Source: Planctomycetota bacterium (GTDB lineage: Bacteria > Planctomycetota > UBA8108 > JACQVS01). Taken from it: DNA of 64,000 bases. Numbering within the stretch: position 1 is the stretch's first letter; the number at the start of each line of letters is the position of its first letter. The position numbers were made by a program, and so were the translations under genes. The stretch is taken from the NCBI GenBank assembly GCA_016209605.1, contig JACQVS010000160.1, positions 1 to 64,000 on the forward strand, given 5' to 3'. The notes beneath the pieces are model-generated. The model ran no database searches and was not told the origin of the DNA. It saw nothing but the letters and a program-made list of their open reading frames with translations. Below, one piece after another: positions 3,119 through 63,945 of the stretch.

Positions 3119-3196
3119 CGTGTCCCTCCCCAACTTTTTCCCTCCGGCGGCGATCCCCGGGAACGCGTCGAGATAAATTTTTAGGTTCTTTCAGGA

Positions 3197-4849: not shown

Positions 4850-4890
4850 GAATCCTCCTCCGGCCGATGGCCTGGGCTGAATAGACCAGC

Positions 4891-34693: not shown

Positions 34694-34788
34694 CCTCCGG
34701 GCCTCGGCGGCATTTCGACAAACCACCAGGTAAGCGCCAGGCCCGATTTTGGTTCCCTGAGGAAAGGCCATGGGCGCGAAAAAAATCA

Positions 34789-34840
34789 TCGCGGCGACAA
34801 TTTTTACGCGTAAAATCTGTCGCTGCGGCGATTTTTACGC
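34789..34840. repeat. Palindromic dispersed repeat, copy 2
   Basis: Bases 34791-34830 match 17681-17720 at 37 of 40 positions. The central dyad is GCGACAATTTTTACGC facing GCGTAAAATCTGTCGC, 14 of 16 bases paired. To the right is a third, shorter copy of one arm (GCGGCGATTTTTACGC), so the unit is a palindrome plus an arm repeat. It ends 12 bases before the ATG of the DUF4011 helicase gene and replaces any normal ribosome site there. Confidence 0.78.
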
Positions 34841-34851
34841 CGTTTTGCGCC

Positions 34852-47139: not shown

Positions 47140-47657
47140 GCATCAACATCCGGAAGATTTTAGGCCAAGGATCTATCCGCCTGGAGCTGAACACGCTCCT
47201 CTTCCCTCAGGAAGTGCTGCCGGAGGGCTTCGATCCTCTCGGCGCCAGAAATCTCGACCGCATTCGCGATGAGGTGATCGGCGAGATGTGCGACCTTCTC
47301 GATGCCAGCGGGCAGATCGGCAACCGCAACCGGCTGTGCAAGGACCTCCTCAACCGCGAGAAGAAGGCGGTCACCGCCGTGGGGGAGGGCATCGCCATTC
47401 CCCACGTGCGCACGCTCCAGGCCAAGGAGTTCATCATGGCCTTCGCACGCTCCCGGAAGGGGCTTCCCTTCCGCGCCCCCGATGACCAGCCGGTGCACCT
47501 TTTCTTCGCCATGGTTTCGCCGCCGTACGAAGACCGCATGTACCTGAAGATCTACCACTCGCTGGCGACGCTGCTCCTGCGGCCGGAAACCTTCCAAGCC
47601 TTCATGGACGCGAGACACTCCAACGACATCTGGCAGATCCTGGAGAGCTGCCGATGA
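47136..47657 (+). CDS. ptsN: PTS system EIIA component (PtsN-like)
   Basis: 173 residues, starting with a TTG at 47136 that overlaps the HIT stop (TTGA); GAGGAGGAAGG precedes it at good spacing, which makes the non-ATG start credible. The PTS EIIA domain of the mannitol/fructose/nitrogen type fills the protein: LLNREKKAVTAVGEGIAIPH near residues 72-91 with the active-site His in AIPHVR, and LFFAMVSPP followed by the LKIYHSLATLL helix. In the nitrogen-PTS branch the protein is phosphorylated on this His and regulates metabolism rather than transporting sugar; no EIIB or EIIC is adjacent, which supports that branch. The first ~45 residues have no counterpart in short PtsN proteins. Confidence 0.87.
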   Translation: MSINIRKILGQGSIRLELNTLLFPQEVLPEGFDPLGARNLDRIRDEVIGEMCDLLDASGQIGNRNRLCKDLLNREKKAVTAVGEGIAIPHVRTLQAKEFIMAFARSRKGLPFRAPDDQPVHLFFAMVSPPYEDRMYLKIYHSLATLLLRPETFQAFMDARHSNDIWQILESCR

Positions 47658-48745
47658 AGGAGAAGCCGGGGGGGATTTCCTTCCAGGAGCTGTTTCAGCG
47701 GAAGAGCTGGCGGCCGCTTCCGGCCGTCGCCGCGCTTGTCGGAGAAGCCGAGTTCCTCCGCCGCGAGGTGGAGCGGCGCTTCATCCAGGAGCTGTTCGGG
47801 AACGAGCCGCTCCCCTCCATCCAGCGTTTCGATGCGTCGCGAGACGTGGAAGGCCTGCTTGCCCACGTCCTGGATGAGCTGCGGACCTTGTCGATCCTCT
47901 CGGCGGCGCGCCTGGCGATCGTCCAGTCCGCCGATGCCTTCCTGGCGTCTTACCGCGAGGCCCTGGAGCCGTTCGTGAGCGCCGGATTCGAGGGGGGGCA
48001 TCTCCTCCTCCATCTGGACAAGGCTCCCGACGAGAGGACCCGCTTCGCCAAAACGCTGCTCCAGCACGGCTGGCTCATCCACTGCCGCCAGCCCTATGAC
48101 CGCCCTCCCCCCTGGAAGACCGGCGATCCGCCCTGGCGCAACGAGCTTTCCGAGTGGATCGCCGCGCGAGCGGCCTACCGGGGGCTGTCCATGAATCTCG
48201 AAACCGCTTACTTTCTCCAGGAAAGGGCGGGAACGGAGCTGGGAACGCTCGATGAGTGCCTGGAGAAGATCGGCATCCTCCTGGGGCCGGAAAGGAAGAC
48301 GGTCACCGGCGACACGGTTGCCGCCGTGACCGGCGAGATCCGCGAAGACTCCATCTTCGACCTGGCCGAAGCCTTCATAGGGCGGGACCGGGTGAAGGCG
48401 CTTTCCATGGCCGAGCGTTTGAACCGGCAGGGCTACCATCCGCCCCGGGGCAACCCGATCTTCGATCCAGCGACCATCGCCAGCCTTTTCATCGGGTCGC
48501 TGATCGCCAGACTGCGACCCCTCCGCCGCGCCCACGCCTTGCAGGCGGCCGGAGGCGGGCCCGACCGCTGGCTGGAGCTGCGGCTGACAACTCGCCCCTT
48601 CATCGAGAGATTCCGCCGGGATCTGGCCGCCATGCCGCCGGGGCGCATTGACCGGATCTTCAAAGCGCTGCTGGAAATGGACCGCAGCATGAAAAGCGGA
48701 GGAGACCCCCAAACGGCGCTGGCGGTGTTTATTGCGCGAAATTAG
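47654..48745 (+). CDS. holA: DNA polymerase III delta subunit
   Basis: 363 residues, starting with an ATG that overlaps the ptsN stop by four bases (ATGA). The N-terminal AAA-type fold has AEFLRREVERRFIQELFGNE near residue 35, RTLSILSAARLAIVQSADAF near 80-100 and HLLLHLDKAPDERTRFAK near 120. The C-terminal helical collar is seen in PTRPFIERFRR-like TTRPFIERFRRDLAAMPPGR and the final LLEMDRSMKSGGD followed by the short LA(V)F tail, a common end of HolA proteins. The protein loads the sliding clamp in the replisome. There is no nucleotide-binding motif, as expected for this subunit. Position in a HIT-ptsN-holA operon is unusual but tightly coupled. Confidence 0.83.
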   Translation: MKEKPGGISFQELFQRKSWRPLPAVAALVGEAEFLRREVERRFIQELFGNEPLPSIQRFDASRDVEGLLAHVLDELRTLSILSAARLAIVQSADAFLASYREALEPFVSAGFEGGHLLLHLDKAPDERTRFAKTLLQHGWLIHCRQPYDRPPPWKTGDPPWRNELSEWIAARAAYRGLSMNLETAYFLQERAGTELGTLDECLEKIGILLGPERKTVTGDTVAAVTGEIREDSIFDLAEAFIGRDRVKALSMAERLNRQGYHPPRGNPIFDPATIASLFIGSLIARLRPLRRAHALQAAGGGPDRWLELRLTTRPFIERFRRDLAAMPPGRIDRIFKALLEMDRSMKSGGDPQTALAVFIARN

Positions 48746-49599: not shown

Positions 49600-52500
49600 T
49601 TGCTACGGGAACCCCTAGCTGGCGCAACGACCACCGCGCGGAGCGCGGTGCTGGATGAATTCAAGTCCGCTGCCCTCAACCTGGTCGAGATTCCAAAGAA
49701 CGATTTTGTCGTTGCTCGGAAAAGTACGCTCTCAGCCATCAGCGCAAAGGCCCCCGTTATCTATCAGGCGGCTCTGGAAGATGGGCAGTTCGCCGGATTC
49801 GCCGACTTCCTCACGCTCGACGCATCCAGGAGGTATCAGGTGTGGGACACGAAGCTCGCTCGCTCGCCCAAGCCGTATTACGCTATTCAGCTTTGCTGCT
49901 ACTCGGAAATGCTAGCCGCCGTTACCGGCGGGCAGATGCCTGAAAAATTCGGCATCATCCTCGGCAGCAAGGACAGGGTTGAATTCCGCGTTGAGGACTT
50001 CATCCACTACTACCACTGTATCAAGGCGAGCTTTCTCGCCATGCAGGACGGCTTCACCGGGAAAATGACGGATCGTCCGGAGCCGCTTCCACGGGCCGAC
50101 CAGGGCCGCTGGACTTCCTACGCGGAGAAATTCTTCAACGACACAGATCACCTCGTGCGGGTCGCGGGAATCAGCGTCGGACAGATCAAGAAGCTGAAGA
50201 GTAACGGAATCGCAACTATGGCCAGCCTCGCCGCAGCGTCAGGCAAATCCATTCACAAACTCGCCAACGACTCGCTAGAAAAACTCGTCGCACAGGCTCG
50301 TCTTCAGTACCAAACGCACGTCGACCGGATCGAGAATCCCGACGTACCCCCTCGATTCGAGGTTCTGCCCCACACTGGGGCGAACGGTGAACTCATCGGC
50401 CTCGCTGCCCTGCCTCCTCATCATCCGGCCGATGTCTTTTTCGACATGGAGGGTTACCCTTTGGTTTCTGGCGGACTGGAATACCTGTTTGGGGTATGCT
50501 CGCGGACCGAGCAGTCAGATTTATTCGACTTCAAGGACTGGTGGGCCCACGACCGTAACGAGGAAAAGCTCGCATTCGAGGGCTTCGTGGACTGGGTATT
50601 CAGCCGGTGGAAGCAGGACCCAGGCATGCACATCTACCACTACGCCGACTACGAAGTCAGCGCGGTTCGGCGGTTGAGCACGCGCCACGACACTCGTCAG
50701 GATGAGGTGGACGAGCTTCTCCGAAACGAAGTGTTCGTTGATCTCTACCAGATCGTCCGTCACGGACTGCGCATCGGCGAGGACAGTTACTCCATCAAAA
50801 CGATCGAGCGCCTCTACCGACCGAAGCGCGCCACCGAGGTCACCACGGCTGTTGACTCAATCGTCCAATACGCCCGCTGGATCGAAAGCAAGCAGGTGCG
50901 TGATTGGAACAACAGCACCATCCTCAAAGGCATCCGCGACTACAACGTGGACGACTGTAAATCCACGGCGGAGTTGTTGCAGTGGTTGAGGAAGGTCGCT
51001 ACTGAACACAAGATCACCGTTGCACGCCCGGCTTCCGCATCCTCCCCATCGACGCCACCGGTATTGCCGCCCGAGGTCGTCGCGCGACTGGACACGGCGG
51101 CCAAGCTTCGCAAGCAGGGCGACGCGGTTTCAGTCGTTCTCTCTGATTTGATCGACTTTCACCGCCGGGAGGAAAAGCCCATGTGGTGGCGCATGTTCGA
51201 CCGTGCTAAGGCGACGCCCGAAGAACTCCGCGATGACCCCGGCTGCATCGAAGGCATCCACGCCATTGGATCTTCGGTGTCCGAAAAACAATCATTCGTG
51301 CAAACATTCCGCTTCGATCCATCGCAGGAATGCAAACTTGCCGCCGGCGACAAGTCCAAGTTGATGTTCACCCACAATCTGGAAGCGAAGTTCACACTGT
51401 TGGCGCTCGATATGTCCAAGGGCGAACTACAACTCAAGATCAGCAAAAAGACGTTGACCGAAAAATTCGGAGGTGCGTTCCCCAAGCATGGTTCGCTGCT
51501 CCCTGATGAGTATGTGCCGGCGGCGGCAATTCAGGCTGCGCTGACCGAAGTTGCCGCCGGACACCAGTCAGACAAACTCCACGCGCCGGTTGCCGCGCTC
51601 TTGAATCGTGTGCCGCCCACGACGCCGCTGCAGAGCGCCGGTGAAACCGCAACCGATGCCGCCATCCGCATTACCCACTCGATGTCGGGCGGCTGCCTCG
51701 TGGTTCAAGGCCCTCCAGGCACCGGAAAGACCTACACCGCCTCGCGGGTCATCACTGCGCTTCTCGCCACGGACAAGAAGGTCGGAATCGCGTCGAACAG
51801 CCACAAGGCCGTGGTGAACCTTCTTATCGCCTGCGGCGAGGCGGCCAAGGAGAGCGGCAGTAGTCTCCACGGGATTAAAGTCGGCGGTGAAGCGGAAGGG
51901 CCCTTGTTTTCTTCCAATCTTGGCTTGGCTCACGTCAAAGACAACGGTGATGCGTATGCTGCCTACACGGCTGGCGTTGTCGGAGGAACGGCTTGGCTCT
52001 TCACCCGGCCCGAGTGGGAAGGCATTCTCGAGTTCCTCTTCATCGATGAAGCCGGTCAGGTGCCTCTCTCCAACGCCGTGGCGATGGCTCGGTCCGCGAA
52101 CAACCTTGTCCTCCTCGGAGACCAGATGCAGCTCGAACAACCCGTGCAAGGCTCGCATCCCGGAGACGCCGGGCTTTCGGCCCTGCAATACGCCCTCAAA
52201 GACACCGCCGCCAGTAAGCCGGACGCGCCAGTCTTTCACGCTGTGGTGCCCCCGGACCGTGGCCTCTTCCTTGGCGAGTCCCGCCGTATGCATCCCGACG
52301 TCTGCCGCTTCATTTCCGAGAGCATCTACGAGGGACGGCTCGGCTCGGACGCCAACTGCGTCAGGCAGAAAATCACCCTCCCTCCTGGCGGCGGCCATGC
52401 ACTCATCACCAAAGAATCAAGCATCGTCTTCAGCGGGGTCCAGCACTACGGCAACGTTCAGCAGAGCGACGAAGAACTGGAACGCGTCAAAGCGATCTAC

Positions 52501-52896
52501 GATGAGCTGCTTAGACGTGCATACACCGCCAAGGATGGCAGCACGAGGCCGCTGGCATTGGAGGACTTCCTCTTCATCGCCCCCTACAACGCCCAGGTGC
52601 GAGCTCTTCAGGCGGCCCTGCCGAATGGCGCTCGCGTCGGCAGCGTGGACAAGTTTCAAGGACAGCAGGCCCCTGTCTGCATTCTTTCCCTTTGTTCCAG
52701 CTACGGCGAATACGGCTCGCGCGGGCTTGCCTTCTTCCTCGACCGCAACCGGATCAACGTCGCCGTCTCTCGCGCTCAATGCCTGGCGGTGGTCGTCGCT
52801 GACCCGCGCATCGCCTGCGCGGCTGCCGGTTCCATCGACGAAATGATGCTCATCAACCTGTTTTGCAAGCTCGCCAACTCATGCGCCTCCGCTTGA
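49600..52896 (+). CDS. TM0106-type RecB-like nuclease/helicase, N-terminus missing
   Basis: ~1,098 residues from a TTG at 49600, but the true start is unclear and no ribosome site is seen. Homology as judged by eye begins at once with the middle of the family's nuclease domain (EFKSAALNLVEIP, then FADFLTLDASRRYQVWDTKL with the Asp...Asp-x-Lys nuclease motif and QLCCYSEML). The usual ~70-residue opening with the Cys-rich CPhR-type motif is absent. Next are a helix-hairpin-like region, an RNase H-like fold (DVFFDMEGYPLVSGG, DYNVDDCKST, residues ~285-480), and an SF1 helicase with GPPGTGKTYTA at ~710, FIDEAGQVPLSNA at ~812 and RINVAVSRAQCLAVV at the end. Such proteins are linked to DNA repair or phage defence. 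The codon use is less GC-rich than around it. It may be a 5'-truncated gene. Confidence 0.72.
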   Translation: MLREPLAGATTTARSAVLDEFKSAALNLVEIPKNDFVVARKSTLSAISAKAPVIYQAALEDGQFAGFADFLTLDASRRYQVWDTKLARSPKPYYAIQLCCYSEMLAAVTGGQMPEKFGIILGSKDRVEFRVEDFIHYYHCIKASFLAMQDGFTGKMTDRPEPLPRADQGRWTSYAEKFFNDTDHLVRVAGISVGQIKKLKSNGIATMASLAAASGKSIHKLANDSLEKLVAQARLQYQTHVDRIENPDVPPRFEVLPHTGANGELIGLAALPPHHPADVFFDMEGYPLVSGGLEYLFGVCSRTEQSDLFDFKDWWAHDRNEEKLAFEGFVDWVFSRWKQDPGMHIYHYADYEVSAVRRLSTRHDTRQDEVDELLRNEVFVDLYQIVRHGLRIGEDSYSIKTIERLYRPKRATEVTTAVDSIVQYARWIESKQVRDWNNSTILKGIRDYNVDDCKSTAELLQWLRKVATEHKITVARPASASSPSTPPVLPPEVVARLDTAAKLRKQGDAVSVVLSDLIDFHRREEKPMWWRMFDRAKATPEELRDDPGCIEGIHAIGSSVSEKQSFVQTFRFDPSQECKLAAGDKSKLMFTHNLEAKFTLLALDMSKGELQLKISKKTLTEKFGGAFPKHGSLLPDEYVPAAAIQAALTEVAAGHQSDKLHAPVAALLNRVPPTTPLQSAGETATDAAIRITHSMSGGCLVVQGPPGTGKTYTASRVITALLATDKKVGIASNSHKAVVNLLIACGEAAKESGSSLHGIKVGGEAEGPLFSSNLGLAHVKDNGDAYAAYTAGVVGGTAWLFTRPEWEGILEFLFIDEAGQVPLSNAVAMARSANNLVLLGDQMQLEQPVQGSHPGDAGLSALQYALKDTAASKPDAPVFHAVVPPDRGLFLGESRRMHPDVCRFISESIYEGRLGSDANCVRQKITLPPGGGHALITKESSIVFSGVQHYGNVQQSDEELERVKAIYDELLRRAYTAKDGSTRPLALEDFLFIAPYNAQVRALQAALPNGARVGSVDKFQGQQAPVCILSLCSSYGEYGSRGLAFFLDRNRINVAVSRAQCLAVVVADPRIACAAAGSIDEMMLINLFCKLANSCASA

Positions 52897-53767: not shown

Positions 53768-54229
53768 TCAATCTTGCCTGTTTCTGGGTAGGAGGATGGT
53801 GAGGTATTCCTCCTCGCGCGATTCGGCGGCTCGGGACCAGCGGATGACGGCGCGGACGAGGAGCTCGTGCTCTCCCCATTCCCGCTCGCCAGTCTTCATC
53901 TTGCCGGCTGCCGGCTGGTGGAGGGTGATCTGCCAGAAGTAGCCGTCGATCTGCTCCGGCAGCGACTCCTTCATGCTTTTCAAGAGTTCTTTCAAGTCTA
54001 CCTCCACGCGGTAGCGCGACTGCACCTCTGAAAACAGCTCCTCGGCCACCAGCGCCGCGTGGGTGCGGTCGACGGCGCGCTTGTGGGCTGAGCTGGCGGC
54101 GGCGAAGAGCGCGATCAAGCTGGTGGCGCCGATCGAGAGGATCACCATGGCGATGAGCACCTCGATGAGGCTGAAGCCGGCCCGAGAGAGCGCCGCGGGA
54201 TTGAAAAAATGGGGGCGCCGCCGGCTCAT
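53768..54229 (-). CDS. GspI/PilV-like minor pseudopilin
   Basis: ~153 residues from the ATG at 54229, which overlaps the stop of the preceding gene (ATGA), with GGGGGGAAG upstream. An open frame runs much further upstream but there it only covers the end of the J-like gene. The leader MSRRRPHFFNPAALSRAG is cut before FSLIEVLIAMVILSIG, with Glu at position 5 after the cut, the prepilin-peptidase signature. Residues ~40-110 form the globular part (RTHAALVAEELFSEVQSRY is like the VEAxQLA(R)xxAE of GspI-type proteins). It ends YLTILLPRNRQD. It is the last gene of the five-gene operon. Confidence 0.82.
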   Translation of the reverse strand: MSRRRPHFFNPAALSRAGFSLIEVLIAMVILSIGATSLIALFAAASSAHKRAVDRTHAALVAEELFSEVQSRYRVEVDLKELLKSMKESLPEQIDGYFWQITLHQPAAGKMKTGEREWGEHELLVRAVIRWSRAAESREEEYLTILLPRNRQD

Positions 54230-55500
54230 CGAAACTTCCCCCCCCTGCCGCCGCGCTGCTTCCCCGCCTCCGCCGCCGGCTCGCGGCAGCCCGGAATCTC
54301 CACCACCCGCCGGAATGCCGTGCCCACCTCCACCTTGGCGCCGGCAGGGTGCTTGGCCGCCGCCGTGCCGCGGGCGCCGCGGCCTTCCTTCGGAACCGTG
54401 AGAGAGCTGCCGCCGATCTTCTCGTAGCGGATCCACTCCTCATCGATCTTGATGAAGCAAGCGCTCCCCGCCTCCGGCAGCCCGATGGTGGAGCTGATCC
54501 AGATGGTCTCCTCCCTGGGCCCGAGGTCGCGGGTCAAGTTGATGGGCGGAATCTCCGGGTTCCCCTGAATGACCACCACCACCTCCACCTTCTCCGGAAA
54601 GAGGTCATCGTAGGGATCCGCCAGGCTCCCCTCGAGGCGCTTCCAGGCGAAATGGCCGGCCGCCGGCTTATCCTCCTCCAGGATCGCCCGCGTCGAGTCC
54701 CAGATCTCGGTCGCCCCGCTCCGCTGCCCCTCCTTCGGCGCGGCGAGCGGCGGATAGGCGGGATCCCAGGTGTTGGTGGCCGGCGTCCAGAACCGGAAGC
54801 CCAGATAAAGGATCTCGCCGGCGAGCGGCTGCGCCGCCTGCAGCAGGGGATGGGGCGCCCCTTTCTCCTCCCGGGCCGCGCCCTCCGCCGCCTCGGTCCC
54901 GGCCTTCCCCTTGGCGGCCTCATCCTTTGGATCGACCTCGATATTGCCGTCGATGAAGATCGAGCCCGCCTCGCCGATCGGCGAGCGCACCCCGCGCAGG
55001 ACCTCGCGGGCCTTGGGGTCCGGACCCATGGCGTAAATCACTTCTTGATAACCCCCCGGCGCGAGCAGAAGGCCCGCTTGAATATCGGCAAAATCCTGAT
55101 GATGGTCATAGGTGGCGGAATTCGAGCGCGCCAGGTACTCGCCGCCGCGGCGGGCGATGGGATCCGAGGACTCGCCCGCCAGCGCCCGCACGAAGCGGAG
55201 GCGCTGCCGCCCCGAGGCATCCTCATCGCAGAGGAAGCGGATCCAGAAGCCGGCCCCCTCGGCCTGGACGTTGGTGGCGGCGTGGCGGAGGTCCTCGGCC
55301 ACGGTGTCGAGGAGGGCGCGGCCGCGCTCGTAAATCCGCCCTCGGGCCTCCGCGAGATGCCATATCGACACCCCCTGGTTGAGGAGGGCGATCAGCGCGC
55401 TGCCGAGGAGGATGAAGATGCCCAGGGAGACCAGCAGCTCGATGAGGGTGTGGCCTTGCAGCCCCGGGCTCCTTTCGCCGCGCCGGTGAAAAACCGCCAT
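54226..55500 (-). CDS. GspJ/PilW-like minor pseudopilin, enlarged
   Basis: ~424 residues. The start at 55500 is chosen because AAGG lies at good spacing and the frame then begins MAVFHRRGERSPGLQG; an ATG at 55533 is possible. The prepilin cut precedes HTLIELLVSLGIFILLGSAL, with Glu at +5; the His at +1 is unusual. The globular part has RALLDTVAEDLRHAA near residue 65 (typical of GspJ/PilW) and continues far beyond the usual ~200 residues, with EVIYAMGPD near 165 and YLGFRFWTPATNTW near 250. A low-complexity stretch (EAAEGAAREEKGAP) separates the parts. Near the end, IDEEWIRYEKIGGSSLTVPK resembles a beta-rich repeat also present many times in the K-like protein. It overlaps the next gene by four bases. 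Confidence 0.78.
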   Translation of the reverse strand: MAVFHRRGERSPGLQGHTLIELLVSLGIFILLGSALIALLNQGVSIWHLAEARGRIYERGRALLDTVAEDLRHAATNVQAEGAGFWIRFLCDEDASGRQRLRFVRALAGESSDPIARRGGEYLARSNSATYDHHQDFADIQAGLLLAPGGYQEVIYAMGPDPKAREVLRGVRSPIGEAGSIFIDGNIEVDPKDEAAKGKAGTEAAEGAAREEKGAPHPLLQAAQPLAGEILYLGFRFWTPATNTWDPAYPPLAAPKEGQRSGATEIWDSTRAILEEDKPAAGHFAWKRLEGSLADPYDDLFPEKVEVVVVIQGNPEIPPINLTRDLGPREETIWISSTIGLPEAGSACFIKIDEEWIRYEKIGGSSLTVPKEGRGARGTAAAKHPAGAKVEVGTAFRRVVEIPGCREPAAEAGKQRGGRGGKFR

Positions 55501-55513
55501 CCGCCGCCTTGGC

Positions 55514-58500
55514 TTAAAAATTGGTCTCTTCATGGCGCAGGATCCGCCCCGCCTTTTCATACTCCACCGAGAGAAGCTCCAGCACCGGCGTCTCCTTCCA
55601 GTCATCGCGATAATGGTCCGGGCGCACGCGCATGAAGCTGCCGCGCTTGTAGCGGAAGTAGACGCGCACGTCGAGCTGGTCGGCGGTGACGTCGAGGTCG
55701 AAGACCGGATCCTCCCGGCGCGCCGACTGCTCCGGCGCTTCGAAGAAGAAGATCCCCCCCTTCTGGTTGGCCGGTTTCTCTGACCAGTCCGGGGCGCCGT
55801 CAAAGCGAGCAGCGACGACGAGATCGCAGAGGCGCTCCATGTTGTTCAAGGGCTTGCGCTCGCGCCAGGAGATGCTCCTCCACGTCGCCCCGGGCATGCG
55901 GAAGCTCTTCTGGAAGTAGGCCAGGCTCTCGCTCTCGGTCTCCGGCTGGTAGCGGTCGAAGTGGCGGAACGGCATGGCGTAGGCGAACATCCCCGGCTCG
56001 ATGGGCTGCAGCACGGTGCCGAAAGAGCTACGCAGGATCCCCTTGCCGTCCTCATCGCGCGGCCGCAGGAAGAGATTCTCCCCTTGAATGCCGGTGTAGG
56101 CGATCATCTCGAAAGGCCGGTTGGGCAGGGTCGAGTCGAGAAGCAGGTAGCCGACCGGCGGAAAGCCCTTGGTGTCCGACGCCGCCAGGTTGACGTCGGT
56201 CATCGGCCCGGTGATCTCGGTGACGTCGACGCAGGTCACCAGGCTGATGGGGTCGCCGAAGCCGTGGGTCTTCCGCTCGGTCCCCAGGAGCCCCCGGCCG
56301 ATGAGGCGCAGCCGCACGGTGACGTTTTGAATGGGGTTGGTGTACCGGTACACCGGCTGGTTGCCTTGCTGGCCGGCCTGGACGACCATGGGCTCGGCGA
56401 CGGCGGTATGAAACTGGCCGCGCAGGCAGTTCGAGAAGTTTCCGCCGCCGAAGCCCTGGTAGTAGAAGATTTCAAAGCCGTTGTTCAGGTTCAAGCTCTC
56501 GATGCGGGCGAAGCCTTCCCTTTCGAAATCGCCGCTGACGTTGTCCACCGTCAGGTCGCGCACGATCATGCGGGCGTACGGGCTGCGCATGCCGACAAAG
56601 CGCGGGTCGATGCGCTCGAACTGGCTGTCGAGGCCGTTCCTTCCATCGTCAGGGGGCTGGATGTCGGTGAGCCTGGCGCGGCCGGCGGCCTGGCTGCCCC
56701 GCGGCTGCGGCGCCGCGGTGCTCTCGAGCGCCTTGGGATTCTCAAAGAAGAAGTACTCATCGTTCACGGAGAGGACGCCGCGCTGGATCGAACGGGCGAA
56801 GAGGTAGTTCCCCCGGCCGGCGGAGACGACCAGGATGTCGAGGGGGTTCTGCCGGCTGATGGTCCGATCCCGCGGGATGGTGCCGGCAATCACCTCGCCC
56901 GGCCCGAGGGGCGTCTGCAACGGCTCCCGCTTGACCGTGCCTCCCTCGAGGGGGACGAGCACGTGCTTCCGGTTGAAGAGCGCGCTGGGGGCCCCCCACA
57001 GGCCCGGATCGTAAAGCTTCTCGACCTCGTCGATGACGAAGCCGGAGGTCTCCTCCTCCTCGACGTTCCGGGAGAGGGCCGAGAGCGCGGAAGCCGAGGG
57101 CGGGCTGCCGCGGACCGCATCGCCGAAGAAGACCATGCGGCCGCCGCCGACCTGCGGCAGCGAGCCGGTGGGGAACTTCACCAGGCGCGGATTCATGGGG
57201 GCAGTGTAGTTGTACTTGAACGCCTTATACTCCCCCGGGTTGACGTCCCAGAGGGAGACCCAGAAGCGGCCGTCGTTGCGCTCCGAGGCCCGGTAGACCC
57301 GGCGCGCCATCGGCTCGTAGACCTGCGGGTCATCGGTGGAGATGGAGACGTAATCGCCGTACCCGGCGCCGCCGCCGGCGACCTCCATCACCAGGCGCAG
57401 CGGCTCTCCCAGGCGGTCGCCGCCCGGGCTGAACTTGGCCCCAGACTGGGAGAGGCCGCCGCGGTGGAACATGTGGTTCTCCTGACGCGGGTAGTCGCGG
57501 TGCCGGGCCGCGCCGACGTTGGTTTTCCCTTGAACGGTCACATGGTGGAGCCCGATGAACATCCGGCCGCTCACATCGTGGTAGCGGATCCACTCCACCG
57601 TGTCATCGGGGTGATGCCCGAAGACCGAGCCGCCGGCCGCGTACAGCTCCGGCTCGCCGGCCAGGCGCCGCCACAGGGGCCGGGCGCCGCGGAGCTCGAG
57701 GATCCCCTCCACCGGGTAAAAGTTGGCGACCGGGCCGCTGGCCAGAACCGAGTAGAGCCGCAGGTAGGTGCGGTCGTCATAGATCGTCGGGTCGACCTGG
57801 CCCCCGGGAGGATAGGTCGCATAGACTTCCAGACCCTGGAGGGGCTCCTGGTTCACCGCCTTCGCCCCGCCGCCGGGGTTGTTGGGATCGCCCTGAGCGA
57901 TGAGGTTGTAGATGGGATGGCCGCTCGGTAGCGGCACCTTGCGATAAAAGACCGCCTGCCCGCCGGCCATCACCACCCCCTCGCTCTGGAAGAACTCGTG
58001 GGCGAAGTAAGCCTGCCCGCCCCACTCGAAGCTCGGCGATGCGGTCAAGCCCGCGGCGCTCACCCTCATGAAGACCGGCGCCAGGTACTGCTTCTGGCCG
58101 GCGGCAGCCGCCCCTCCCGCCGGCACCTGGCCTCCTTCTTTTCCCCGCCCGCCGCCCGGCGGGACAATCTTGGGGTTGTAGTTGTAGATCCCATCCCAGA
58201 CGTCCGGCGGGAACTTCCACGGCAGGAGGTCCCCCGCCAGGCGCAGGCCGCCGGTGCCGAAGAGGAAGTCCGACCGATGGTACCAGTAGTTCCGGTCGAC
58301 CATGAGCGAGTAGCCGTGCAGCGCCGCGGGGGAGCCGGCAGGGTGGTTCGCCGGCCGCACCGAGGCGCGGTGGTTGCCGGGATCATCGAGGCCGGCGCCG
58401 CGCTGGAGCGAGGCCTTGAGGCCCCCCTTGGGGAGCCTGGCGGTTCCCTGCCCCGGCTGGGAGAGCGTCCCGCCGGGCGGCTGCTGCGCTTGCGCCGCCG

Positions 58501-61500
58501 GCTGCGCCGCCAGCCAGCGCTCGAAGTATGAGGGGTCCTGGATGCGGATCTGGCCGTTCTCGTACTCGATCAGCTCATGGTTCACCCGCAGGACGCCGCT
58601 CTTCGGGAAATCGCGAAAGTCCTTGATGGGGAGGGCGTTCGATTGGGAGGAAAGCGACCCCGACAGCTCGGTCGTGAAGTTCGAGCGGCCAGCAGGCAGG
58701 CCGTCGATGAAGAGCTGGATGCCGCCCGAGTAGGCGCCGTCCCAGGCCAGGCGCAGGTGGTACCAGGTGTCTAGGTCGAGGGGGCGCTGGGCGCGGATCT
58801 CGAAGAACTGCTTTCCTTTCGGAATCGAGGGATCGGGAATGGAGCTGTCGTAGATGCGCGCCACCCACTCGGAGGTCTTTTGATCGAAGAGCAGCGAGAT
58901 GCGGTTGCGCTCCTCCTCGGCGCCGGCATCCATGAGGATGAGGAGCCCATCGCGGTTGGACTCTTGCGGGAAAGTGCGGAACTTCACCCAGGTCTCGACG
59001 GCGGCGGGGACATTGGTAAGGTCCATGATGCCGCCGCCCTTCCCGCCCGCTGCCACCCCTCGACCCGATCCGCCGCCGGCCTCGCCGCCGAGGTCGAAGT
59101 CCGGCACCTCCCACGGCTCGCCGCCGGGGAGCTCGAGGCCTTCCCGGGTCTCCCGGAAGTGCTCGATCTGGCCGAAGGTGGTCCGCCCCGCGAAGGTTTC
59201 CGCCAGCTCGAGCCGCAGCGTGCCGCGCTCCGCCCCCGGCACGGCGAAGCGGCTGATCCCGCCGGCGCCGGTTCGCGCATATGTCCAGTGCACCTTGTAC
59301 AAGACCGGCGTGGTCCGGACCAGGTGGCTCCGCGCTCCCGGGAGGCTCACCGAGTGGAAGGCGTGGTCCTCCGGCGCCCGGGGAGTCCAGGGGTTGCGCA
59401 GATAGATCTCGCTGGTGAAGTCGAACTGGGTGAAGAGCAGCCAGCGCTGCACTTCGGGCGGCGACACCTCGACGATCTCCCGCAGCCCCACCTGCGCCAG
59501 CTCGCCCCCCGCCTCGCCGCGCAGGATGCCCCGGCTCGAGATGGTGTACACATCGCCCGAGGCGAAACAGAAGCCGGTGGTCGAGACGCGCAGGAGGTGG
59601 TGGTTCGGCTGGATGGCGTTGAGGTAGAGCGGGTAGACGTCCTGGTCATCGATCGCCCCGGCGTCGGCCGCCTCCACGAAGAGGTCGTGGAGGTCGAGGT
59701 ATCCCTTGAGCGGCCGGCGAGAGCAGATCACGCCGGCGATATGGGCCGCCTCCGCCGGCGTCACCAGGCCGGGCGTCTTCAGGCTGCCGATCCCGCCCGA
59801 GCCCGGATCCTGCCCCTGTCCCCGTTTCTGGCCCGCCGCCTGCTCCTTCTTCCGCTTCTCCTCTTCCTCCTTGGGCCGGAAGCTCCCCGCCGCCGCCCCG
59901 GAGACGCCGGTGAGCACCGCCTGGATCACCCGGGGCGGCGCGGTGTTGACGTTGACCGGATGCCGCTCGAGGAAGTCGATCCAGGCCTCGCGCTCGCCGT
60001 AGCCATTGAGGAGTGGAAAGAGGGTGCTGAAGCCGTAGACGGCTGCACCCCCATGGCCGTGCGTCACCATGTTGTACTCGACGGCGCTCGGATCCCTGCG
60101 GTCGCGGATCCGCACCACCGCAAAGCCGCCGTTTTCATCCGGCCGGGCGATGCGGACCGATCCGCCCCCCGCTTCTCCGGCGAGGATGGCCTCCTCGTTA
60201 ACCTGCGGCTCGGACCACTTCGCGGGCACGGCGGAGCTGACGGTGATGCAGTCCCGGAGCAGCTCCAGGTCCTGCGGCAGGATGGTCTCGATCCCCGGCG
60301 TGCGGTATACGTCCGCCAGGTTCTCGAGGCACGCCTCCAGGTACCGCTTGTCGAACTTCGGCGGCTGGCGCTTCTCCTTCCTGAGCCGCTCCTCGAGGGC
60401 CTTGGCCTCTTTTTGCACTTCTTTGGGATGGAGATGCTCGATCCGCGCCGCGAAGGCGATCGCCGCTCGCATCCCGTAGGCCTTCTCGAGGCCCTCCGTC
60501 ACCGTCCTCGAGACGTTCAGCCGGCGGAAGGTCCGGCGCGCCAGCTCCAGCTCGCGCTTCAGCCCCTCGCCGCGGTCCGATCTGCCGCCCTCTCCCTCGA
60601 AGAGGGCCGGGTCGAGGCCCAGCTCCTCCAGCCTGCTCGCGCGGATGCCGTGCTGGCGGAGGAACTCGGCGGTCAAACCCTCGCCCCGCAGGCGCGTGAG
60701 GAAGAGCGAGGCCACTTGCCAGTTGGAGACCTCCCGCAGCGCCTCCACCGTGGCGAACTCCGCCAGCCTGCTGGCGGTGAAGCCGCCGATGGCCCCGGCG
60801 CGCAGCTTGTGGAAGCCCGCCTTCCAGCCGCGCAGGTCGTAGACCATGGTGCCGATGTCGATAGTGGACCTGGACGGGAGAGAGAAAAAGGCGCCGCGGA
60901 AGCAGCCCTGGAGGACGTTCCCCTTGCGCTCCCGGTAGGTGATGACTTCGCCTGACATGGGCCCGATGACCACCGCGCCGTCAACGGTCCGCGGGTCGCC
61001 GTCATCGCGGAAGGGGCCGGCATCCTCGAGGACCATCACCGCGTCGCCGGGATGGAGCGGCCGCTCGAGGACGCTCGAGCCGAAGAGGTTGGCGAGCAGG
61101 ATTGGCGTGGCGGTGTTGAGGTTGATTTTCCCCTGCTCATCGGCCACCTCCACCGAGGCCGTCAGGCCGCGGGGGTCGCGGAAGGAGATGGGGACCGGCC
61201 CGACCGGCACGGTCGTGGTGCTCTGGCCTCGCTTGCCGGCCGCCTGCAGATCCGTTCCGGAAAGCACGGTCGGCGCCTGGAAAGGGATCTCCGCCGATTC
61301 CGGCATGTGCACGTCCAACTCCCCGGGCTCATCGTAATCCTTCTCCGCCGGCCCTTTTTGCGACTCCATGAGGCCCGGCGCGGCCGGCTGCTCGAACGAT
61401 CCGAACCGTTCCCTCCTTTTCGGCTCGCGCTTTTCCCCCTGGTCCTCCCGGATGACCATGCCGCGGCGCTGCTGGCTGGAGCTGCTCCGGCGCGACGGCC

Positions 61501-61816
61501 GCCGCTTCTCGCTGCTCAGGGAGAACCGGCCGGTCTTGAGCCTGGGCTGATCATCGACCCCGGCCTTTTCCGCCTCCTCCTCCCCCTCGGCGTTGCGGGC
61601 GGTCTTCTCGAGCAGGGCGATGGCATGGTTGCGGGCCGCCTCGGCAGCTCGGCGGGCCTTGACCGAGGCATCGAAGTTCATGCTCGACTTCTCCTGAAGC
61701 ACCATGGCGATGACGAAGGGGGCGCCGATGATGGCCAGCGCCGTCAAGACGAGAAGGACCATCACCAGCGCGACGCCCGCCCGCGCCGCCGTTCTCGAAA
61801 CCTTGAACTCTTTCAT
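55514..61816 (-). CDS. Giant GspK-like pseudopilin with LamG-like domain
   Basis: 2,100 residues; GspK is normally ~330. The start at 61816 is fixed by AAAGGAGG seven bases upstream and by the N-terminus: ARAGVALVMVLLVLTALAIIG is the GspK-type transmembrane helix, without Glu at +5 as is normal for K. The GspK-like core follows: INLNTATPILLANLFG near residue 233 and HPVNVNTAPPRVIQAVL near 620 (the NxNTA helix start of GspK SAM-like domains), with TPAEAAHIAGVICSRRPLKGY and a DLHDLF segment near 700. From ~927 to ~1050 is a concanavalin/LamG-like sandwich (AVETWVKFRTFPQES, WYHLRLAWDGAYSGGIQLFI). The last ~1,000 residues are repeated beta-rich units with WIRYH or EFFY phrases and GxLR turns. It would be an exported tip or surface protein of a pseudopilus. 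It is the third gene of the operon. Confidence 0.75.
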   Translation of the reverse strand: MKEFKVSRTAARAGVALVMVLLVLTALAIIGAPFVIAMVLQEKSSMNFDASVKARRAAEAARNHAIALLEKTARNAEGEEEAEKAGVDDQPRLKTGRFSLSSEKRRPSRRSSSSQQRRGMVIREDQGEKREPKRRERFGSFEQPAAPGLMESQKGPAEKDYDEPGELDVHMPESAEIPFQAPTVLSGTDLQAAGKRGQSTTTVPVGPVPISFRDPRGLTASVEVADEQGKINLNTATPILLANLFGSSVLERPLHPGDAVMVLEDAGPFRDDGDPRTVDGAVVIGPMSGEVITYRERKGNVLQGCFRGAFFSLPSRSTIDIGTMVYDLRGWKAGFHKLRAGAIGGFTASRLAEFATVEALREVSNWQVASLFLTRLRGEGLTAEFLRQHGIRASRLEELGLDPALFEGEGGRSDRGEGLKRELELARRTFRRLNVSRTVTEGLEKAYGMRAAIAFAARIEHLHPKEVQKEAKALEERLRKEKRQPPKFDKRYLEACLENLADVYRTPGIETILPQDLELLRDCITVSSAVPAKWSEPQVNEEAILAGEAGGGSVRIARPDENGGFAVVRIRDRRDPSAVEYNMVTHGHGGAAVYGFSTLFPLLNGYGEREAWIDFLERHPVNVNTAPPRVIQAVLTGVSGAAAGSFRPKEEEEKRKKEQAAGQKRGQGQDPGSGGIGSLKTPGLVTPAEAAHIAGVICSRRPLKGYLDLHDLFVEAADAGAIDDQDVYPLYLNAIQPNHHLLRVSTTGFCFASGDVYTISSRGILRGEAGGELAQVGLREIVEVSPPEVQRWLLFTQFDFTSEIYLRNPWTPRAPEDHAFHSVSLPGARSHLVRTTPVLYKVHWTYARTGAGGISRFAVPGAERGTLRLELAETFAGRTTFGQIEHFRETREGLELPGGEPWEVPDFDLGGEAGGGSGRGVAAGGKGGGIMDLTNVPAAVETWVKFRTFPQESNRDGLLILMDAGAEEERNRISLLFDQKTSEWVARIYDSSIPDPSIPKGKQFFEIRAQRPLDLDTWYHLRLAWDGAYSGGIQLFIDGLPAGRSNFTTELSGSLSSQSNALPIKDFRDFPKSGVLRVNHELIEYENGQIRIQDPSYFERWLAAQPAAQAQQPPGGTLSQPGQGTARLPKGGLKASLQRGAGLDDPGNHRASVRPANHPAGSPAALHGYSLMVDRNYWYHRSDFLFGTGGLRLAGDLLPWKFPPDVWDGIYNYNPKIVPPGGGRGKEGGQVPAGGAAAAGQKQYLAPVFMRVSAAGLTASPSFEWGGQAYFAHEFFQSEGVVMAGGQAVFYRKVPLPSGHPIYNLIAQGDPNNPGGGAKAVNQEPLQGLEVYATYPPGGQVDPTIYDDRTYLRLYSVLASGPVANFYPVEGILELRGARPLWRRLAGEPELYAAGGSVFGHHPDDTVEWIRYHDVSGRMFIGLHHVTVQGKTNVGAARHRDYPRQENHMFHRGGLSQSGAKFSPGGDRLGEPLRLVMEVAGGGAGYGDYVSISTDDPQVYEPMARRVYRASERNDGRFWVSLWDVNPGEYKAFKYNYTAPMNPRLVKFPTGSLPQVGGGRMVFFGDAVRGSPPSASALSALSRNVEEEETSGFVIDEVEKLYDPGLWGAPSALFNRKHVLVPLEGGTVKREPLQTPLGPGEVIAGTIPRDRTISRQNPLDILVVSAGRGNYLFARSIQRGVLSVNDEYFFFENPKALESTAAPQPRGSQAAGRARLTDIQPPDDGRNGLDSQFERIDPRFVGMRSPYARMIVRDLTVDNVSGDFEREGFARIESLNLNNGFEIFYYQGFGGGNFSNCLRGQFHTAVAEPMVVQAGQQGNQPVYRYTNPIQNVTVRLRLIGRGLLGTERKTHGFGDPISLVTCVDVTEITGPMTDVNLAASDTKGFPPVGYLLLDSTLPNRPFEMIAYTGIQGENLFLRPRDEDGKGILRSSFGTVLQPIEPGMFAYAMPFRHFDRYQPETESESLAYFQKSFRMPGATWRSISWRERKPLNNMERLCDLVVAARFDGAPDWSEKPANQKGGIFFFEAPEQSARREDPVFDLDVTADQLDVRVYFRYKRGSFMRVRPDHYRDDWKETPVLELLSVEYEKAGRILRHEETNF

Positions 61817-61863
61817 GGCCAAACCTCCTTTGCCGCCGGCCGGAGCCGGCTGCCGATCTCCTG

Positions 61864-63279
61864 TCATCGCACGCTGCCGATCCGATCGAGGATGATCTCG
61901 ACCTTCCGCCGGCCGCCCAGCCTCTCCTCGATTTTCTTCTCCTCGTCCTCCTCCCGAAGGCCTTCTAGCTCCCGCCCGCTTTTTTCCACCCACTCCTGGA
62001 AGGTGAGGGAGAAGTCCACCACCGCCTGGGTCCTGGCCTCCTTGAGGAGCGGATTGGCGGTCTCCTCGTAAAAGACCAGGCGCACCGGGCGCTCGTGGAA
62101 GCGCGGGTCGAGATGGCCGCGGCGGTTGAAGCGGATGATCTTCCTCCAGCCGAGGATCTTGAAGGCCGGATCGAGGGCGAAGACCACCGGATCGACCAGG
62201 CCGCGCAGGCGCACCTCATCCACCCGAGCGGCGATGGAGCCGCGCGGCGAGCCGATGGTGAGCGGCTCGAGGTCCGCGGGAATGGAGGAGGGGGGCGGCG
62301 GGACCTCCTTCGGGTCGAGCCCCTCGTAGCCCACCGGCGCCGCCTCCCGCTCCAGCTCATCGGCGAACAAGGTGATGGACTTGCCGTCGTACTGGCAGGC
62401 CGCCAGAGTCCAGCGTCCCGGCTGCACCGTCGCCGGGGCGGTGCGGACGCGGTAGTCGCCGATCGCTGCCTCGAGGGCGCCATCGGCGGTCACGCCGAGG
62501 GCAAAGGCCTTCCCCTTGGCGACCACGGCGGCGGTGTGCTCCTCGGCGGCCTCGAGGGCATCCCTGCGCCGCCGCGTCCCCCGCGCCGAATCGGCCCTCA
62601 GGGGCGCGGCGAGAGGCTGCTCCAGCGAGATCCAGGCCCCGACGTGAAGGCCGGCGCGCAGCCCAAAGCGCGAGCTGCTGCCACAGTTGACGTAGCTCTT
62701 CTCCGCCAGGCGCACTCCCTTGCCGACGTGCCCGTCGACGATCTCCGCCCCCACCAGCTCGGCCGGCTCGCCCGAGACTCCGGAGGTGCTGCCGCCAGCA
62801 GACTCCTCGAAGTTCCACTCGCCCACCGACTCGAAGGCGTGGGCGGTGATGCTCCTCGAGACCGGATCGACCACCACGCTCACCGGAATGCCCCAGGAGA
62901 TGGCGGTGTGGCGCGCGGAGAGCAGCAGCCCCTCGGCGCGCGAGGCCGCGGCCGAAAGGCTGTAAATGCGCCGGGCGTACTGGTAGGCGCCGGCGCTGAA
63001 GCCGCCGATGATCGCCAGGATGGCGATGACGGTGAGAAGCTCCATGAGGGTGTAGCCCCTGAGGCGTCCATGGCCGCAACCAAATATCGAAGTGGAACGA
63101 GAAAAAGAGGAAGAGGGATTAACCGCCAAGACGCCAAGAACGCCAAGAAAAGACGCGAGGTGAATAATAGAGCGCTCCTTGGGCACCAAAACTTCACTGC
63201 GGCCCGAGTAGAATATTTGATGTAAGCGCCTAATGCTGAATTGGCCTTGTTGGTCGCGGCCGGTCATAGCCTGATCCAT
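61864..63279 (-). CDS. GspH-like pseudopilin with inserted LamG-like domain
   Basis: 471 residues if started at the ATG at 63279, which has GGAGAG upstream. The cut site (HGRLRG before YTLMELLTVIAILAIIGG, Glu at +5) is ~77 residues from that start, a very long leader, and part of it (HLASFLGVLGVLAVNPSSS) is a translation of the CGCCAAGA repeat block at 63119-63150. A GTG or TTG start inside this stretch would shorten it. The GspH part (AEGLLLSARHTAISWGIPVSVVVDPVSR) is split near residue 150 by ~200 residues of LamG-like sandwich (GKGVRLAEKSYVNCG, VGAWISLEQPL, GRWTLAACQYDGKSITLF). It returns to a pilin-like end (GWRKIIRFNRRGHLDPRF, PVRLVFYEETANPLL). Gap to the K-like gene is 47 bases. Confidence 0.72.
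   Translation of the reverse strand: MDQAMTGRDQQGQFSIRRLHQIFYSGRSEVLVPKERSIIHLASFLGVLGVLAVNPSSSFSRSTSIFGCGHGRLRGYTLMELLTVIAILAIIGGFSAGAYQYARRIYSLSAAASRAEGLLLSARHTAISWGIPVSVVVDPVSRSITAHAFESVGEWNFEESAGGSTSGVSGEPAELVGAEIVDGHVGKGVRLAEKSYVNCGSSSRFGLRAGLHVGAWISLEQPLAAPLRADSARGTRRRRDALEAAEEHTAAVVAKGKAFALGVTADGALEAAIGDYRVRTAPATVQPGRWTLAACQYDGKSITLFADELEREAAPVGYEGLDPKEVPPPPSSIPADLEPLTIGSPRGSIAARVDEVRLRGLVDPVVFALDPAFKILGWRKIIRFNRRGHLDPRFHERPVRLVFYEETANPLLKEARTQAVVDFSLTFQEWVEKSGRELEGLREEDEEKKIEERLGGRRKVEIILDRIGSVR
63119..63150. repeat. Tandem CGCCAAGA block inside the H-like pseudopilin gene
   Basis: AACCGCCAAGACGCCAAGAA followed by CGCCAAGAA: three tandem copies of a (A)CGCCAAGA unit. Its reverse complement (TTGGCGTTCTTGGCGTCTTG) is nearly the sequence at 17957-17976. 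Here it is in frame in the leader region of the gene that ends at 61864, and encodes LGVLGVLAVN. Confidence 0.7.
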
Positions 63280-63285
63280 CGTGTT

Positions 63286-63945
63286 TCAGTCTCTCCAGGA
63301 AGCGATGTCATCGCCGGCGCCGTTCTCGTTCTTGCCGTTGGGCCCGAAGGACCAGATCTGGAACGAGGTCGGCGCCTGGTACGTTCCGGTCTTGTCGCTT
63401 TTGACCGCTTGCACGTCGATCTTCTGGCCCTTGGAGTCGATGTAAGTCAGCTTTTTTCTCGAGCCGTAGTCGCGCTGATGGATGTAGACGAAGGGGTTGC
63501 CCCACATGTCGCAGTACTCGAGCAGCGCCGCGTTGCCGCGGCTCCAGTCGAGCGCCTGCTTGATCCGGGCCAGGTCCTTCGGGGAAAGGTTGTCGCCGTC
63601 GGAGTTGGCGAGGCGGTTGTCGCTGAAGTCGCCGTGGAACGGCCCGCCTTTCCGGCGCGTGCCGGCGTGGGCGATGAGCGACTCGTTCCCCTCGTCAATG
63701 CCGTTCGTGCTCAAGCCCAGGGGCGGATCGGAGAAGAAGGTCGGTGGAAAATCGCCGAAGTTGTTCTTATAGGAGTGGGCGGCCTGCGCCAGCTGCTGGA
63801 TCTCGGCCTGGGTCGCCTTGACATTGGCGAACTTGCGGCCGTACTGGACGCTGACGATGGTCAAGCTGGCGAGGATGGAGATGATGGTCACCACCAGCAG
63901 GACCTCGACGAGGGTGAAGCCCTCGGGACGATGACGGTCGCTCAT
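63286..63945 (-). CDS. GspG-like major pseudopilin
   Basis: 219 residues, first gene of the operon. The short leader MSDRHRPEG is cut before FTLVEVLLVVTIISILASL, with Glu at +5: a class III signal typical of GspG. The globular part has QAEIQQLAQAAHSYKNNFGD near residue 45, the region where GspG has its first globular helix and then YPT; here it is followed by FPPTFFSDPPLG. DMWGNPFVYIHQRDYGSRKK near 145 and FQIWSFGPNGKNENGAGDD near 200 match the GspG DPWGxPYxY and SxGxDGxxGGxGxxDDI landmarks, and the D residues near the end correspond to the calcium site. No ribosome site precedes the ATG: the double-hairpin element ends two bases upstream. The six-base gap to the H-like gene indicates one transcript. 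Confidence 0.88.
   Translation of the reverse strand: MSDRHRPEGFTLVEVLLVVTIISILASLTIVSVQYGRKFANVKATQAEIQQLAQAAHSYKNNFGDFPPTFFSDPPLGLSTNGIDEGNESLIAHAGTRRKGGPFHGDFSDNRLANSDGDNLSPKDLARIKQALDWSRGNAALLEYCDMWGNPFVYIHQRDYGSRKKLTYIDSKGQKIDVQAVKSDKTGTYQAPTSFQIWSFGPNGKNENGAGDDIASWRD

Follow-up and report, generated by a model that had tools for sequence, protein, structure and literature searches.

Minor pilins of the H, I, J and K types form a set at the tip of type 4 filaments, and in type IVa pili (T4aP) this set is capped by PilY1 (PMC10191384). Modular type IV pilins carry grafted ligand-binding domains, PF13385 among them, as in PilB and PilC of Streptococcus sanguinis (PMC8179133). The MUL2 locus of Akkermansiaceae is a PilM-type pilus locus that has been linked to glycan attachment (PMC13174399), and Planctopirus and Gemmata take up dextran, which attaches to their pili-like fibres (PMC5394234). 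Here we analysed a window of 64,000 nucleotides from a Planctomycetota bacterium (contig JACQVS010000160.1 of assembly GCA_016209605.1), in which five minus-strand genes encode pseudopilins in the order G-H-K-J-I, and in which the GspK-like protein reaches 2,100 residues. This giant-K locus belongs to the kind of the type II secretion system (T2SS) and the type 4 filaments, and is not a new kind. We estimate at about one half the probability that it encodes a second, Planctomycetota-specific T2SS-type filament, in which K, J and H make up an integrated binding head at the tip and in which the E, F and D components act in trans. The narrower version, that the GspK cap is a surface binding head of 140-240 kDa whose motor and secretin are shared with or borrowed from other systems, is put forward only tentatively.

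Re-examination placed the five genes on one strand at the positions, and in the order, that the original prediction had given them from their prepilin or GspK-type N-termini. The major pseudopilin G of the GspG type (63286-63945, 219 residues) is followed by the GspH-type H (61864-63279, up to 471 residues), the giant GspK-like K (55514-61816), the GspJ-type J (54226-55533, 435 residues, or 424 if translated from the ATG at 55500) and the GspI/PilV-type I (53768-54229, 153 residues). The 3' end of K is overlapped by J and that of J by I. The prepilin motif G↓[FYH]-T/S-L-x-E is found in G, H, J and I, and Glu5 is missing from K, as it is from GspK. The lengths reported originally hold as well: K, of which about six times the family length had been claimed, is about 6.5 times as long as the 307-position GspK model, and J, which has a C-terminal extension, is about twice as long as the 192-position GspJ model.

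K starts at the ATG at 61816, preceded by a strong Shine-Dalgarno sequence (AAAGGAGG). Its reading frame runs uninterrupted in 47 loci, taken from independent metagenome-assembled genomes (MAGs), with lengths of 1,275-2,226 residues, and we therefore reject a frameshift or assembly artefact; the splitting frameshifts that the original prediction had envisaged for other assemblies were not found in any of these 47 intact orthologues. Judged from its sequence, K is a true relative of GspK. The protein matches T2SS_GspK with an E-value of 9.5e-9, and 48 of 51 relatives match the GspK model NF037980, the best at 4.5e-15, both values being under the curated cut-off. A profile of ordinary GspKs aligned with K at 98.1% probability (hhalign), and T2SSK of Pfam was matched by seven of nine family members. 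AlphaFold modelled the N-terminal pilin helix (residues 10-70; 61607-61789 on the minus strand, as are all features of the five genes), which coincides with the NF037980 match at residues 13-78. The GspK-like region (approximately residues 160-785; 59462-61339) is supported by AlphaFold and by T2SSK/HHH_3 Pfam matches in the family, and contains the motifs DEQGKINLNTA and HPVNVNTA. Both motifs are kept as DEQGKINxNTA and HPVNxNTA, with D226, N622 and N624 invariant among 51 sequences.

Beyond the GspK-like region, K has a beta-sandwich of the LamG/pentraxin type (residues 933-1086; 58559-59020). The PF13385 match covers residues 933-1051 with an E-value of 8.7e-6, 1.2 bits under the cut-off, and recurs in seven of nine members; AlphaFold placed a beta-sandwich at residues 938-1086, for which Foldseek ranked a pentraxin domain first and agrin LG domains further down. 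The C-terminal end is a conserved beta domain (residues 1840-2100; 55517-56299), mostly with a predicted local distance difference test (pLDDT) score of 75-95. In the viral list of Foldseek for the C-terminal half, phage virion proteins are frequent, mostly at low probabilities. No solved structure similar to K by sequence was found.

We also noticed a feature of K that the first reading of the sequence had missed. A module of about 55 residues, FP..G.l.Ig.E.i.Y...RG..GT....H..G..V, is repeated near residues 270, 1070, 1200-1300, 1700 and 1900. The first copy spans approximately residues 268-320 (60857-61015; bins 200-300 of the internal-repeat search), the second, which seeded the repeat profile, residues 1068-1170 (58307-58615), and the last, from the internal-repeat search, residues 1885-1940 (55997-56164). 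Profiles built from one copy recovered the other copies, giving 45 matches at an i-E of 1e-4 or better in 28 proteins and none in reversed sequences. The same module occurs in J at residues 361-402 (54328-54453; i-E 3e-13 with the K module profile), and in 33 of 40 J proteins compared with none of the reversed proteins. The profile search was not convincing for G, H, I, the TPR protein, PilO or PilM, and the sole match in I (L129) is the same open reading frame as the J of that locus. In three of nine relatives the module region, at the second copy, matches phage tail/baseplate or virion families of PHROG (best values 6.4e-9, 2.3e-5 and 8.1e-5); unlike these, K of the window has no PHROG phage-tail match of its own. 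The presence of lectin-like and phage-tail-like modules in a tip subunit suggests that it probably presents a binding surface.

The remaining subunits are consistent with a T2SS-type filament. G matches the GspG model TIGR01710 with an E-value of 2.7e-11, under the equivalog cut-off, and N_methyl over the cut-off; the C-terminal loop of the GspG type, S-x-G-x-[DN]...DD[IV] (DDI in the window), is kept in 46 of 47 G orthologues. H matches N_methyl at 2.2e-4, and among 24 orthologues Pfam found N_methyl in all, LamG in 21 and GspH in four. The LamG (concanavalin-like) insertion, located by alignment and Pfam at approximately residues 155-365 (62185-62817), separates the N-terminal helix from the last pilin strands. 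It is weak in H of the window (E 0.0021), with a best value among orthologues of 8e-18. The LamG-like sandwiches claimed for both K and H were thus recovered, in H by Pfam and in K by Pfam, AlphaFold and Foldseek. H combines a prepilin methylation motif and a non-pilin domain in one chain, as modular type IV pilins do. Its start is uncertain: the frame allows one at 63279, but the first ~50 residues may be untranslated, and the true start may be nearer 63123; in the relative L080 the alignment shows an internal Met about 20 residues ahead of the cleavage site. J has the prepilin motif and weak matches to TIGR01711 and TIGR02599, and I matches TIGR02523 (3.3e-11), gspI (1.3e-7) and N_methyl (1.4e-7).

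The boundary of the window splits the locus, and the contig (C128) runs on to 90,643 bp. On the same strand as G, in extended window coordinates, a periplasmic tetratricopeptide-repeat (TPR) protein (64019-66559) lies directly upstream of G, followed by a small GspC/PilP-like protein with one transmembrane segment and an RNPF motif (66556-67008), a PilO/GspM-like protein (67011-67895), a PilM/GspL-like protein (67909-69573) and a double-FHA protein (69848-72841); a sigma-54 activator gene is found farther on. The PilM/GspL-like assignment is clear by Pfam (PilM_2, E 2.8e-25), and the protein also bears a transmembrane segment and a periplasmic part, as in GspL. The PilO/GspM-like and GspC/PilP-like assignments are made from position, transmembrane segment and RNPF motif only, and no solved structure was found for the PilO-like protein. 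The original prediction had stated that no ATPase, platform protein, secretin or prepilin peptidase was in view. We found no E, F, D or peptidase gene at the locus, the extended contig included; the inner-membrane C-, L- and M-like genes do exist beyond the edge, and the platform had seemed absent in part because the window edge cuts the locus.

The full gene order PilM-PilO-TPR-G-H-K-J-I was seen in 27 named Planctomycetota loci, and truncated loci are consistent with it. Among loci with room on the contig, 47 of 54 have H and G next to K, 33 of 37 have J and I, and 30 of 39 have the PilM/PilO/TPR genes; E, F or a secretin stands beside K in no locus of the giant-K family. K-like matches were present in 48 of 59 relatives searched. 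A search of 394 genomes of the phylum with a K profile found 177 at E<=1e-3, of which 134 reached E<=1e-10 and 43 were weaker (a division counted by hand from the table). Many of these 43 may be matches of the pilin-like N-terminus only, in near-complete families; near-complete, isolate-like families are mostly K-negative or marginal, and the strongly K-positive families are mostly MAG families. The named relatives are Planctomycetota MAGs, except for a few contigs named as other groups, which may be mislabelled, and three Spirochaete matches, which are ordinary T2SS. The cell type guessed from the sequence, that of the Planctomycetes-Verrucomicrobia-Chlamydiae (PVC) group, and the preserved operon order that had been anticipated are therefore both borne out, and no paper describing the locus was found among open-licence PMC papers, as had been supposed. 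In several relatives (L061, L064) I is closely followed downstream by a DNA polymerase III delta-like gene, and in the window such a gene lies at 47654-48745, a few kilobases from I; this hints at an old chromosomal position.

The ATPase, platform and secretin genes for which a search elsewhere in the genome had been recommended were found in this genome and in relatives, together with a prepilin peptidase. The genome of the window has E-F-G-H-I-J of an ordinary T2SS (C178, L013), PilB, PilT and PilD (C14), PilC (C159), PilM-N-O with a PilQ-like secretin (C27) and further secretins. A genome of the same family has a complete T2SS, E-F-G-H-I-J-K-L-M-x-D with a K of 489 residues, on one contig (G001:C82, L165). 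Separate ordinary T2SS and type IV pilus (T4P) genes in the same cells imply that the giant-K locus encodes a further system on top of these. A cassette E-(T)-E-F with two extension-type ATPases, and with neither pilins nor secretin nearby, also occurs in several of the ten K-positive genomes that were examined (L227, L230, L237 and similar). This cassette was not found in the window's own genome, which is 80% complete, and its role as a dedicated giant-K motor is unproven, as F genes are as numerous or more so in K-negative genomes. Other observations on related genes are two pairs of a small STAS-like protein and a short GspE-type ATPase of ~400 residues (L011 on C101, 7345-8928; L012 on C87, 7274-8897); proteins of 1,000-1,400 residues with GspK/PilX-like N-termini outside pilin operons, next to conserved hypothetical genes (L157, 11724-15281; L160, 5042-8791; three in tandem in L163; two in tandem in L161); and, in another planctomycete (G101:C1, ~488153), an unbroken frame of 13,576 codons that overlaps a T2SSF match.

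We propose that the shaft would be built of GspG-type subunits, and that the dedicated PilM/GspL-, PilO/GspM- and GspC/PilP-like proteins, with FHA and TPR helpers, would form an inner-membrane complex holding the assembly. The tip, which would prime the filament, would consist of K, J and I on top of H, the position of K being suggested by its homology to GspK and the PilHIJK set. The extension ATPase, the platform protein F, the prepilin peptidase and the secretin would come from genes elsewhere. The binding equipment, provided in T4aP by a separate protein (PilY1), would here be carried by K, J and H themselves: LamG in H, and LamG, the phage-tail-like module (also in J) and the beta-rich C-terminal domain in K. 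Pushed through the secretin, the tip might show its binding surface to polymers or cell surfaces, most plausibly to a glycan. That the cap subunit is itself a large multi-domain protein favours such an integrated head.

Several observations weigh against this proposal. No E, F or D gene could be tied to the locus, and no dedicated motor was identified because F-gene counts do not distinguish genomes with K from those without it. AlphaFold confidence for K was moderate (mean pLDDT 71.7 and 62.7). Prediction of its structure, recommended with the original prediction, yielded the N-terminal pilin helix and the LamG sandwich, but Foldseek returned no GspK structure for the GspK region and no confident fold match for the C-terminal half or domain. 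LamG domains bind proteins and lipids besides sugars, and LamG alone is no proof of sugar binding. A tip of this size might also be a periplasmic device instead of a surface one. In the main rival, the locus would be a second, substrate-dedicated T2SS, in which the K/J/H tip recruits special exoproteins in the periplasm, for example large polysaccharide-degrading enzymes, for passage via a shared secretin, with LamG and the tail-like modules binding substrates and not the outside world. Its parts are indeed of the T2SS type (the GspG loop, GspK, the L/M/C-like proteins), the locus has no major T4 pilin or retraction gene, and the HIJK tip of the T2SS contacts exoproteins directly (PMC10191384). 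We nevertheless consider this alternative unlikely, at perhaps half the weight of the surface-exposed head, as an ordinary T2SS is already complete in the sister genome and represented by E-F-G-H-I-J in the window's own, the locus has no linked substrate gene, and precedents are more common for modular pilins that bear adhesive domains (PMC8179133).

An uptake device seems improbable. It would be a retractable, competence-like pseudopilus that captures polysaccharide outside the cell with its tip and pulls it into the enlarged planctomycetal periplasm, in keeping with the dextran-binding fibres and dextran uptake of two cultured Planctomycetes (PMC5394234) and with the glycan attachment tied to the PilM-type MUL2 locus (PMC13174399), whose family the PilM-like gene matches here; yet the locus lacks a retraction ATPase, and the strong K matches are mostly in MAG families, with probably cultured families having none or marginal ones. 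More doubtful still is the notion of extra minor pilins that prime or decorate an ordinary T4P without a filament of their own. The absence of E, F and D from the locus, the ordinary T4P set in these genomes (PilD, PilT, PilB, PilC) and the interchangeability of T2SS and T4P HIJK sets in priming (PMC10191384) would accommodate it, but a major-type GspG is encoded within the locus itself, as is a C/L/M-like platform that is separate from the PilMNO of C27. We give least credence to the idea that K serves mainly as a scaffold, anchored in the membrane and placed in the periplasm or at the surface, which has retained its pilin-like N-terminus but no longer enters a filament: proteins of ~1,000-1,400 residues with GspK/PilX-like N-termini do occur elsewhere in the phylum, singly or in tandem, but the operon is conserved with four intact prepilins and the platform genes.

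The window also contains genes for Melibiase/GH36-like and GH123-like glycoside hydrolases (293-5269), a protein of 1,854 residues with three Lamin Tail Domains and a CotH kinase domain (39838-45402), and two large helicase/nuclease-type proteins, one with DUF4011 and REase_MTES_1575 (34594-39714) and one with RNase_H_2 and AAA_11/12 (49600-52896). No RNA families were found in it.

An additional T2SS-type filament with an integrated head would be a concrete and widely conserved candidate for seizing or exporting large molecules in many uncultured members of the Planctomycetota, a phylum noted for taking up macromolecules in unusual ways. The type 4 filament family would gain a member in which the GspK-type cap has grown four- to seven-fold to become a binding head, and in which K and J have a phage-tail-like module in common. 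The locus also makes testable whether one cell runs several pseudopili from shared motors.

Among the described systems, the T2SS shares with the giant-K locus the GspG-type shaft subunit with its C-terminal loop, homologues of H, I, J and K, a K without Glu5, and a GspL-like fusion of an actin-like PilM domain, a transmembrane segment and a periplasmic part, with putative GspM- and GspC-like partners. The giant-K locus differs in its order G-H-K-J-I, in a K of 1,275-2,226 residues compared with ~300-490, in LamG in H and K, in K-type modules in J, in the FHA and TPR genes, in the lack of E, F, D and peptidase genes at the locus, and in the existence of a separate ordinary T2SS. Modular type IV pilins (PMC8179133) similarly join a pilin helix to a grafted PF13385 LamG/concanavalin-like domain, whereas here the domains are distributed over a conserved GspG-H-K-J-I set with the biggest load on the GspK-type cap. 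PilY1/PilC1 on PilHIJK of T4aP is likewise a large modular protein at an H/I/J/K-type tip, the position that K would occupy, but it is a separate non-pilin with a beta-propeller; no beta-propeller was found in the giant-K tip, where the bulk is fused to K. The Verru_Chthon cassette A-D of Verrucomicrobia (TIGR02600, 02598, 02599 and 02596, in NCBIfam naming) also combines a large protein having a GspK-like N-terminus with B, C and D prepilins. Membership was rejected, as none of 59 Planctomycetota genomes reached the TIGR02600 cut-off, and the likeness to Verru_Chthon_A is confined to the N-terminal ~70 residues, mostly in stand-alone proteins. A link to the crateriform structures of Planctopirus and Gemmata is unsupported, near-complete families being K-negative or marginal, and the dextran-binding fibres of these genera, though suggestive, may be unrelated to the locus because near-complete, probably cultured families lack a strong K match. 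With MUL2/Amuc_1099-1102 (PMC13174399) the locus shares a PilM-like protein of the Amuc_1101 family type, the pilus-like organisation and the PVC host, whereas the published MUL2 consists of four genes and lacks a giant K. The PilM-like protein (L009, 5909-7603) matches the Amuc_1101 family at 8e-37, which might reflect a deep PVC link, but its 127.3 bits are far under the NF045709 cut-off of 650, and we reject membership in MUL2/Amuc_1101. For glycan capture linked to pili in PVC bacteria, MUL2 offers the best parallel in the literature.

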